Assembly (NCBI RefSeq): GCF_014191775.1
Contig: NZ_JACHXA010000006.1
Coordinates: forward strand, 124,001-188,000
Source: Limibacillus halophilus
GTDB lineage: Bacteria; Pseudomonadota; Alphaproteobacteria; Kiloniellales; CECT-8803
DNA: 64,000 nucleotides
Reading direction: 5' to 3'
Position 1 is the stretch's first letter, and each line of letters starts with the position of its first letter. Below, piece after piece: positions 45,082-48,228 of the stretch. The notes below the pieces were generated by a model. That model did not search any database. It worked only from the letters and a program-made list of their open reading frames with translations, and was not told the DNA's origin. The position numbers and the translations under genes are program-made.

Positions 45082-45798
45082 ATGCGTTACCTAGGCTCCA
45101 TAGCGTTCAATATCCTCTTTATCGTCTGGACCTTGCTGATTTTCATTATCGGGCTGCCGGTGCTCTTGCTCCCTACCCGCTATGTTTTTGCGTGGGGGTG
45201 CCTCTGGGCCTGGGTGACGTTGCAGTTGCTGCGCTTCATAGGCGGAGTCGACAGCCGTTTCATCGGTATGGAGAAACTGCCGGAGGGACCCTTCATCCTG
45301 GCCAGCAAGCACCAATCGACCTGGGATTCTTTGGTGCTGCCGCGCCTTGCGCCAAACTCCGCTTACGTGCTCAAGCGCGAGCTGACAGAGATTCCATTAT
45401 TCGGTGCCTACGTGAAACGGGCAGGCATGATCCCGGTGGACCGGGAAGCCGGCGCACCGGCTATTCGCTCCATGCTGCAGCAGGCCAAGGCCGCCGTTGC
45501 CCAAGGCAAGATTATAGGCATCTATCCTCAGGGAACGCGCACGGCGCCGGGAACGAAGCTACCCTATCATCCGGGCGTCGCCGCGCTTTACACACACTTG
45601 AAACTACCGGTGGTCCCTGTCGCCCTGAACTCGGGCCTTTTCTGGGCGCGCCGCGCCTGGTTCCTGCGGCCCGGCACGATCACGCTGGAGGTTCTCGACG
45701 TCATTGAGCCTGGCCTCGATCGCAAGACCTTTCTGTTGGAGCTGGAACGCCGCATTGAAGAAGCCAGCGATCGCCTCGCCCGCGAGAGCGAACAATAA
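45082..45798 (+). CDS. plsC: 1-acyl-sn-glycerol-3-phosphate acyltransferase
   Basis: This 238-residue membrane enzyme makes phosphatidic acid from lysophosphatidic acid. Two N-terminal hydrophobic helices are followed by the HX4D motif (H77 to D82 in KHQSTWDS), a YVLKRELTEIPLFGAYVKRAGMIPVDRE block with the second motif, and the YPQGTRTAPG motif (a PQGTR version of EGTR). The C-terminal VPVALNSGLFW strand matches family block IV. It closes the ftsE-ftsX-ydcF-plsC operon. Confidence 0.92.
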   Translation: MRYLGSIAFNILFIVWTLLIFIIGLPVLLLPTRYVFAWGCLWAWVTLQLLRFIGGVDSRFIGMEKLPEGPFILASKHQSTWDSLVLPRLAPNSAYVLKRELTEIPLFGAYVKRAGMIPVDREAGAPAIRSMLQQAKAAVAQGKIIGIYPQGTRTAPGTKLPYHPGVAALYTHLKLPVVPVALNSGLFWARRAWFLRPGTITLEVLDVIEPGLDRKTFLLELERRIEEASDRLARESEQ

Positions 45799-45845
45799 GG
45801 GAACATTTCTTGACCGACGACCCTTCGCCGCCTACTCTTTAGGCT

Positions 45846-45876
45846 AGGAGAGGCAGCCCAAAGCTGCCTGCTGACC
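45846..45876 (+). promoter_or_regulatory. Hairpin-bridged ribosome binding site of nrdJ
   Basis: AGGAG (45846-45850) is followed directly by a perfect 7-bp hairpin, AGGCAGC (45851-45857) with GCTGCCT (45863-45869) and a CCAAA loop, then seven bases to the ATG at 45877. In linear form the Shine-Dalgarno lies 26 bases from the start, too far; with the hairpin folded the effective spacing is seven. No other in-frame standard start codon is available in this stretch. Confidence 0.6.
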
Positions 45877-48228
45877 ATGACCAAACAGGTAAAGACGGAC
45901 ACGCGCGATCTGCCCCCCATCTCTCAGGACATCTGGGAGATGAAGTATCGATTGCGAGCCCTTTCCGGCGACGCGCTGGACGAGACACTTGACGATTCCT
46001 TCCGCCGCGTCGCCAAAGCCTTGGCGGCTGCCGAGGAAAAGCCGGACGACTGGGAGTCTCCCTTCTTCGAGGCCATGCGCGACCTGCGGTTCCTTCCTGC
46101 CGGACGCATTCTTGCAGGGGCTGGAAGCGACCGTGACGTCACGTTGTTCAACTGCTTCGTCATGGGGCAGATTCCCGACAGCATGGATGGCATTTTCAGC
46201 CAACTCCGGGAAGCGGCCCTAACGCTGCAAATGGGTGGTGGGATCGGCTACGATTTCTCGACCCTGCGCCCACGTGGCGCGGCTGTCATGGGCGTTGGCG
46301 CCGATGCGTCCGGCCCGCTCAGCTTCATGGATGTTTGGGATTCCATGTGCCGCACGATCATGAGCGCGGGTTATCGCCGGGGCGCGATGATGGGGACGCT
46401 GCGCTGCGATCACCCGGACATCGAAGATTTCATTGCCGCCAAACAGGATCCCGGCAGGTTGCGTATGTTCAACCTATCCGTCCTGGTGACGGATGCCTTC
46501 ATGCAGGCCCTTCGCGAAGACAAAGATTGGGATCTGACCTTCAACGGCAAGGTGACACGCAGCCTGCGCGCGCGCGACCTCTGGGATAGGATGATGCGCG
46601 CGACCTATGACTATGCGGAACCCGGCGTGATATTCATCGACCGGATCAATCAGCAAAACAATCTCGCCTATGCCGAAGAGATTTTCGCGACGAATCCCTG
46701 TGGCGAGCAGCCTTTACCGCCCTACGGGGCCTGCCTGCTTGGGTCGGTGAATTTGGCGCGGATGATTGACAACCCCTTCAAGAAGACCGCGACGCTGAAC
46801 ATCGAGGCCTTGAAGAATACCATTGGAACCGCCGTGCGGATGCTTGACAACGCAATCGATGCGTCCCGCTTTCCGCTTCCGGCACAGCGCGACGAGGCCA
46901 TGGCCAAACGGCGCATCGGCCTTGGCATAACCGGCCTGGCGGATGCCCTGATTTTCTGTGGCCAGCGCTATGGGAGTCGAGAGGCGGTTGCCACCGTCGA
47001 GCAATGGATGCGGGCATTCCGCGACGCCGCTTACGAGACCTCCATAGAACTCGCCAGGGAAAAGGGCGCGTTCCCGCTCTTCGAGAAGGAACCCTACCTG
47101 AACAGCCCGCAGGTCAAGGACTTACCCGAGACGCTCCGCCAAGCGATTGGCGAGCATGGTATCCGTAATGGTCTTGTTACCTCGGTCGCGCCGACAGGTA
47201 CCATTTCCCTTCTTGCCGGCAATGTATCCTCAGGCCTGGAACCGGTGTACGCCTTCAGTTACCGCCGTAACATTCTGCTGCCGGACGGTAGCAGCCGCCA
47301 AGAAATCGTCGAAGATCATGCCATGCGCCGGTTCCGCAAGATGTTCGGTGACACGGCAGAAGTTCCCGAAAGCTTTGTCGACGCCCAACATCTGGAGCCC
47401 GGGGCTCATTTGGTCATGCAGGCAACGGTGCAGCGTTTCATTGATTCTTCGGTTTCCAAGACCATCAATCTGCCCGAGCAAATTTCATTCGATGGCTTCA
47501 AGGATGTGTACCTGCGCGCCTATGAAATGGGTTGCAAGGGATGCACGACCTACCGCCCCAACCCGACGACCGGCGCGGTACTGGAGCCCATGGCGGCGGT
47601 TGAGCAAGGTGACCCTGCGCCTGCCGCCGGGTCAATCGAGGCCGATGGCCAGGTCGTCTACATGTCCCAACCCCTGGACCGGCCGCAGGCCCTGCCGGGG
47701 CGCACCTACAAACTGCAGTGGCCCGAAAGCGATCACGCCATATACATAACACTCAACGATATCGTGCAGGATCAGCGTCGTCGGCCTTTCGAAATCTTCA
47801 TCAATTCCAAGAACATGGAGCATTACGCCTGGACCGTTGCTTTGACCCGCATGATCAGCGCCGTTTTCCGGCGTGGCGGCGACGTGTCCTTCGTCGTGGA
47901 AGAGTTGAAGGCCGTGTTCGATCCGCGCGGCGGCGCCTGGGTGAAGGGCCGCTACCTACCGTCGCTATTGGCGGCCATTGGCGAGGTAATCGAGCGGCAT
48001 ATGCTGGATATCGGTTTTCTTGCTCGGCCCGAGACCTTGGTTGAGCCGCAGCAGGAAACAGCGCGCGAAGGCGCTAAGAGCGACCCTCCCTACTCCATTT
48101 CTTCGCACAGCAACCACCAACCCGGCCAACGTGGTCCGGCACAGTGTCCCCGCTGTGGCGCAGCGGCTGTTATCAAACAGGAAGGTTGCGATCTCTGTAC
48201 GGCTTGCGGTCATTCGCGCTGCTTCTAA
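45877..48228 (+). CDS. nrdJ: Adenosylcobalamin-dependent (class II) ribonucleotide reductase
   Basis: This 783-residue enzyme makes deoxyribonucleotides with cob(II)alamin-generated thiyl radical. The ten-stranded barrel carries LFNCFVMGQI (first active-site Cys), QMGGGIGYDFSTLRPRGA, ATNPCGEQPLPPYGACLLGSVNL with the NPCGE radical-site motif, SVAPTGTISLLAGNVSSGLEP and GCKGCTTYRP. The C-terminal tail CPRCG...CDLCTACGHSRC (last 30 residues) is a Cys-rich ribbon that delivers reducing equivalents. No nrdAB genes are here. It depends on the corrinoid uptake and adenosylation genes in this window. Confidence 0.95.
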   Translation: MTKQVKTDTRDLPPISQDIWEMKYRLRALSGDALDETLDDSFRRVAKALAAAEEKPDDWESPFFEAMRDLRFLPAGRILAGAGSDRDVTLFNCFVMGQIPDSMDGIFSQLREAALTLQMGGGIGYDFSTLRPRGAAVMGVGADASGPLSFMDVWDSMCRTIMSAGYRRGAMMGTLRCDHPDIEDFIAAKQDPGRLRMFNLSVLVTDAFMQALREDKDWDLTFNGKVTRSLRARDLWDRMMRATYDYAEPGVIFIDRINQQNNLAYAEEIFATNPCGEQPLPPYGACLLGSVNLARMIDNPFKKTATLNIEALKNTIGTAVRMLDNAIDASRFPLPAQRDEAMAKRRIGLGITGLADALIFCGQRYGSREAVATVEQWMRAFRDAAYETSIELAREKGAFPLFEKEPYLNSPQVKDLPETLRQAIGEHGIRNGLVTSVAPTGTISLLAGNVSSGLEPVYAFSYRRNILLPDGSSRQEIVEDHAMRRFRKMFGDTAEVPESFVDAQHLEPGAHLVMQATVQRFIDSSVSKTINLPEQISFDGFKDVYLRAYEMGCKGCTTYRPNPTTGAVLEPMAAVEQGDPAPAAGSIEADGQVVYMSQPLDRPQALPGRTYKLQWPESDHAIYITLNDIVQDQRRRPFEIFINSKNMEHYAWTVALTRMISAVFRRGGDVSFVVEELKAVFDPRGGAWVKGRYLPSLLAAIGEVIERHMLDIGFLARPETLVEPQQETAREGAKSDPPYSISSHSNHQPGQRGPAQCPRCGAAAVIKQEGCDLCTACGHSRCF

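Follow-up and report, generated by a model that had tools for sequence, protein, structure and literature searches.

Hairpins lying between a Shine-Dalgarno (SD) sequence and its start codon have been described in phage T4, where folding of the intervening RNA shortens the SD-AUG distance from 22 to 5 nt in gene 38 and from 27 to 11 nt in gene 25 (PMC3014915). Destabilizing mutations lower initiation at these sites, and the gene 25 site is further backed by probing with DMS and by its conservation among closely related T-even phages (PMC3014915).

The published operator of LexA in Caulobacter is GTTCN7GTTC (PMC12700426, PMC4211646, and PMC9578287). In the literature searched, no LexA control of an alphaproteobacterial nrdJ was found, nor was an alphaproteobacterial class II nrdJ found listed as a member of the LexA regulon; no claim of novelty is made on this account. 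Dedicated transcriptional control of a class II reductase is described for Pseudomonas aeruginosa, whose nrdJ promoter has NrdR (PMC4409342) and AlgR (PMC5738425), and not LexA, as its regulators in the available portions of these papers.

This article concerns the nrdJ gene of Limibacillus halophilus, which lies in the stretch of 64,000 nucleotides analyzed here (the window). It shares with P. aeruginosa nrdJ a class II reductase under what appears to be dedicated transcriptional control, here putatively through LexA. As in the Caulobacter LexA regulon (PMC9578287, PMC12700426), an exact N7 box stands by a TTGAC-type promoter and the same box precedes the genome's own lexA. Like the sites of T4 genes 38 and 25, nrdJ has an SD-like sequence too distant from the start codon and an intervening hairpin that would bring it to a usable spacing; unlike those mutationally supported phage sites, the nrdJ arrangement is known from sequence, and from one of 116 leaders. 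The locus is probably best explained as a LexA-controlled promoter followed by a short 5′ UTR, with a lineage-specific hairpin that is most likely incidental.

The nrdJ Gene and Its Leader

The features of the locus are collected in Table 1. The gene product matches the NrdJ_Z model TIGR02504 (score 579 bits, cut-off 400) and carries the barrel, all-alpha, and TSCPD domains of Pfam. The ATG at 45877-45879 is the sole credible start codon: the stretch from the preceding stop to 45877 contains no in-frame ATG, GTG, or TTG, the N-terminus aligns with those of relatives, and a later start at the next methionine (45940) was rejected, as it falls inside the conserved WEMKYR.

Table 1. Features of the nrdJ locus, in positions of the window (G001, the nearest relative compared).
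Feature	Position	Strand	Basis and remarks
plsC-type acyltransferase gene	45082..45798	+	ORF; Pfam PF01553, E 1.1e-21; TAA overlaps the putative LexA box
Putative LexA/SOS box, GAAC-AATAAGG-GAAC	45790..45804	+	Exact match to the alphaproteobacterial box, which reads GTTCN7GTTC on the opposite strand; G001 has GAAC-GTTCATA-GAAC at the aligned position
Putative -35 element, TTGACC	45810..45815	+	Aligned with TTGATT of G001; identical 17-base spacer
Putative -10 element, TACTCT	45833..45838	+	Alignment; TATTCT in G001
Predicted transcription start	45844..45846	+	6-8 nt past the -10 element
SD-like AGGAG	45846..45850	+	Predicted at or near mRNA position 1
Hairpin 5′ arm, AGGCAGC	45851..45857	+	Direct reading, stem scan, folding
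Hairpin loop, CCAAA	45858..45862	+	Direct reading
Hairpin 3′ arm, GCTGCCT	45863..45869	+	Direct reading, stem scan, folding
Seven-base spacer, GCTGACC	45870..45876	+	Partial pairing with AGGAG predicted
nrdJ, encoding a short (783 aa) class II ribonucleotide reductase that depends on adenosylcobalamin	45877..48228	+	TIGR02504, PF02867, PF00317, PF12637

The first-pass annotation had described an AGGAG followed by a perfect 7-bp hairpin with a five-base loop, then seven bases and the ATG, and direct reading bears out every letter of this, together with the spacing given for AGGAG to ATG (26 nt linear, 7 nt folded). The hairpin has an energy of -11.2 kcal/mol. AGGAG counts as a far core at its 26 nt, and the leader is without an SD core at 4-14 nt from the ATG; the 16S rRNA of the same genome ends in ...GGATCACCTCCTTTCT, a canonical anti-SD in which CCTCC is present. 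Two marks of a split ribosome site, a distant SD with none nearer and a hairpin that gives a folded spacing of 5-11 nt, are thus both found at nrdJ.

Several other identities for the hairpin were considered and rejected. Its arms do not behave as a DNA operator, since GGCAGC-N3-9-GCTGCC is found at 11 genomic sites, compared with 10 for the reversed control, and yields no repeated motif. With regard to riboswitches and other known RNAs, a match to sX12 (27.1 bits, below the gathering threshold of 106) is located inside plsC, and Rfam returned no match on the nrdJ leader itself up to an E value of 1. No intrinsic terminator was found across 45600-46100. A ten-codon frame with a TTG start (45810-45842) is preceded by AAGGGAA and ends with a TAG just before AGGAG; it overlaps the -35 element and would need a read-through mRNA.

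Leaders Compared

The best 80 of 596 confirmed nrdJ homologue loci were taken, together with an order-level search that matched 45 of 61 genomes, the window's own included, all 45 of which were examined (30 loci and 15 sequence stretches). The order set takes in Pelagibius and Kiloniellaceae, as judged by leaders identical to those of named contigs (L115 = L015, L098 = L010). From these sources, 127 alphaproteobacterial nrdJ leaders were extracted and reduced to 116 distinct ones, 35 of which come from the order search and among which is that of the window; counts over the 116 are not fully independent, because near-identical sets (Nitrospirillum, Pelagibius) remain. The start was placed at the final ATG lying 15 nt or more ahead of [IV]W..KYR (slightly wider for some) or, failing that, at the nearest GTG or TTG, and a few starts, such as those of L018 and L069, may sit one methionine too late. 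The nearest relative compared, G001, is the one other genome of the same family in the set and belongs to a different genus; over residues 3-300, the two NrdJ proteins share 78% identity.

A Putative LexA Box and Promoter

The box ends 5 nt upstream of the -35 element and does not lie over the -10. From the first base of the box through 45845, the sequence aligns with that of G001 without gaps, with 35 of 56 positions identical and a score above all of 2000 shuffles. A strict sigma-70 scan calls no promoter at nrdJ because the -10 element is weak. With the promoter so placed and transcription predicted to begin at 45844-45846, AGGAG would form the extreme 5′ end of the mRNA.

Of the 116 nrdJ genes, 27, those of G001 and the window included, carry GAACN7GAAC or GTTCN7GTTC within 200 nt upstream, against 0.8 in shuffled sequence, and the enrichment is specific to N7, with spacings of 3-6 and 8-12 found 0-3 times each. 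The 27 boxed leaders provide 28 places, and the 18-nt stretch around the box end contains TTG at 26 and TTGA at 23 of these; the background for TTG is 0.26 of such stretches. Promoter-like sequences of the form TTGAC-N17/18-[CT]TA[CT] occur in 24/116 upstream regions (0.2 shuffled), and the looser TTGA[CT]-N16-19-TA[CT] in 31/116 (1.6 shuffled). The SOS box and promoter shared by about a quarter of the relatives suggest that nrdJ is switched on by DNA damage. The remaining 89 leaders have no exact box, and LexA control would therefore not be universal.

An N7 direct repeat near the promoter, the presence of the box in orthologues, and a genomic LexA with a box at lexA are the attributes by which membership of a LexA regulon was judged, and each is found here. 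The genome encodes LexA (PF01726, 55.7 bits against a cut-off of 23.7), and an exact box precedes lexA in this genome, in G001, and in a further genome, G011. The recA genes of the same three genomes have no exact box nearby and have boxes matching 7/8 positions at two offsets that are nearly the same in all three; such matches are frequent (three in 600 nt, one of them inside recA), so that only the shared offsets carry weight. The contig that carries nrdJ has three exact boxes in all. In addition to the one before nrdJ, a second GAACN7GAAC lies within the nrdJ coding sequence (47089-47103); the window has no exact box beyond these two, and the one in the coding sequence is probably a chance occurrence. 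The third, the AT-rich GAACAAAACAAGAAC, is outside the window near 106418 of the contig on the minus strand, and directly precedes an ATG frame, possibly an SOS gene.

Two further reductases are encoded in the genome: at locus L003 on contig C2 a class I NrdA (1022 bits to NF006577), and at locus L004 a long class II NrdJ (1890 bits to NF005736), whose frame is truncated where the locus ends. An exact GTTC-N7-GTTC (L003:989-1003) begins 128 nt before the likely ATG of nrdA (L003:1117), a start selected for its resemblance to that of G001. The longest nrdA frame begins at a GTG at 1054. In G001, an exact GTTC-N7-GTTC (L007:467-481) begins 129 nt before the likely nrdA ATG, in an upstream region that is otherwise well conserved. 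The 306 nt that precede the likely ATG of the long nrdJ contain no box with one mismatch or fewer. The palindrome-like TCGCAATATATTGTGC (L003:1058-1073), also before nrdA, resembles an NrdR box.

Conservation and Chance

The first-pass annotation had proposed that leaders of related species be aligned and inspected for compensatory changes in the stem. The complete arrangement is present in the window's leader and in none of the other 115; as no relative has a homologous stem, there are no compensatory changes to count. The AGGAG-to-ATG stretch aligns with that of G001 no better than shuffles do (P 0.30), and the G001 leader has no such stem, no AGGAG, and no SD core of the kinds searched for in its last 20 nt. 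Perfect stems within the last 40 nt of the leaders are as common as in shuffled sequence, those of at least 6 bp occurring in 5/116 (4.7 shuffled) and those of at least 7 bp in 2/116 (1.3 shuffled), and a far SD core alone is found in five leaders, the window's included.

Relatives that lack the stem and keep a nearer SD had been named beforehand as evidence against bridging, and the comparison goes that way with two reservations. SD cores of 4 nt or more are present at 4-12 nt in 71 of the 116 leaders, against 12, 9, 10, and 6 at four control distances. The reservations are that G001 has neither stem nor near core and that the set includes no congener. A background drawn from "unambiguous" starts gave a near SD in 9/20 genes, far controls in 3/20 and 5/20, and stems of at least 7 bp in 0/20, with 20 genes being too few to rely on. 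Taken together, the comparison of sequences gives no support to a ribosome site bridged by a conserved hairpin.

Chance was gauged by scanning the contig that carries nrdJ (223,715 bases) for an SD core, a perfect stem of at least 7 bp, 4-10 nt, and an ATG. The nrdJ site is the single instance among 6068 ATGs on both strands; when the stem is relaxed to 6 bp or more the count is 4 ATGs, and with 5 bp or more it is 14. Twenty single-strand dinucleotide shuffles of the contig gave 9 matches in total, or 0.45 per strand. By arithmetic from the shuffles, the hairpin is rare at any given gene (about 1.5e-4 per ATG), and about 0.5 genes per genome would be expected to have one by chance if some 3300 genes are assumed. 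For a window of about 60 genes, the chance is about 1%, before allowing for other oddities that a reader might have chosen. The nrdJ arrangement is thus weakly beyond chance.

Predicted Folding of the Leader

The 7-bp stem is predicted to form. In ViennaRNA folds that begin at 45844, 45845, or 45846 and end at 45900, its pairs have probabilities of 0.95-1.0, and in folds from 45838, 45799, or 45700 of 0.80-1.0; when the predicted mRNA is extended to 45936, the coding sequence competes and the values are just 0.44-0.62. The GGAG of the SD is itself partly paired in all of these folds, being unpaired with probabilities of 0.50-0.66 in the predicted-start folds to 45900 and of 0.08-0.36 in those to 45936; its release would cost 0.4 and 0.9 kcal/mol, respectively. 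In a longer read-through mRNA, GGAG is predicted to pair with an upstream CUUC at 45823-45826. The last 40 nt of the leader rank 15th by folding energy among the 116.

Possible Roles for the Hairpin

The proposal that the ribosome binding site is bridged by structure fares well in its geometry, which fits the T4 precedent, and poorly in its distribution. As a specific account, a true split site that arose in this lineage alone, with 30S binding AGGAG and the AUG and the hairpin looped out, is rather unlikely, though it is the foremost alternative to an incidental hairpin. The folded spacing of exactly 7, the high pairing probabilities of the stem in folds to 45900, the canonical anti-SD, and the lack here of the near SD core that most leaders have are all consistent with it. 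T4 gene 25 illustrates that lineage-limited cases occur (PMC3014915), and this precedent, with the lack of a near core at nrdJ, is why a split site is still entertained. It is countered by the absence of the arrangement from all other leaders, by a chance expectation of about one per two genomes, by the partial pairing of AGGAG, by the weakened stem in folds to 45936, and by the lack in G001 of any SD core of the types looked for in its last 20 nt. With no stem or near core in G001 and no congener among the genomes compared, a split site at the level of the species may be envisaged.

A fuller version, in which nrdJ would be an SOS-induced, B12-dependent reductase with a chromosomal split site, such that transcription starting at AGGAG and folding of the stem-loop jointly license translation, must be regarded as less likely still.

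In Escherichia coli ompA, a 5′ stem-loop protects the mRNA from 5′-end-dependent decay. The predicted start would set the nrdJ stem 5-7 nt from the 5′ end, and a hairpin of this stability would suit such a stabilizing role, which we nonetheless consider improbable since the stem is unconserved and the position of the 5′ end is a prediction. Least probable of all is an element that sequesters the SD, responds to temperature, or is bound by a protein, with AGGAG and GCTGACC pairing in an extended stem. Although GGAG-spacer pairing appears in the minimum-energy folds of 45846-45900 and of the leader, the SD would be released for 0.4-2.1 kcal/mol in folds starting at or after 45799 (3.2-3.5 from 45700), the folding energy is ordinary and not clearly beyond shuffles (z +0.43 for 45799-45936 and -1.45 for 45838-45900), and Rfam, as noted, has no match on the leader.

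A LexA-controlled promoter with an incidental hairpin remains the preferred explanation. In this scheme, LexA would occupy GAAC-N7-GAAC just upstream of the -35 element and repress nrdJ; upon DNA damage, LexA would be cleaved and RNA polymerase would start at about 45844-45846. The first 31-33 nt of the mRNA would then consist of at most two bases, AGGAG, the 7-bp stem-loop, and GCUGACC, followed by the AUG. Initiation would take place at the AUG at 45877, with AGGAG contributing weakly or not at all, and the 5′ stem-loop would form without a selected role. Against this scheme stand the position of the box away from the -10 element, the negative sigma-70 scan, the many leaders that have no exact box, and the lack of a near SD core, the last of which leaves room for a role of AGGAG.

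Biological Implications

Were bridging real, a phage curiosity would extend to a core bacterial gene. On the preferred reading, the significance lies in the promoter. SOS boxes stand before the short class II reductase of some Alphaproteobacteria, and both genomes of this family have one before the class I reductase too, while none was found before the long class II gene of the L. halophilus genome. DNA damage would thereby raise the supply of dNTPs through additional enzymes.
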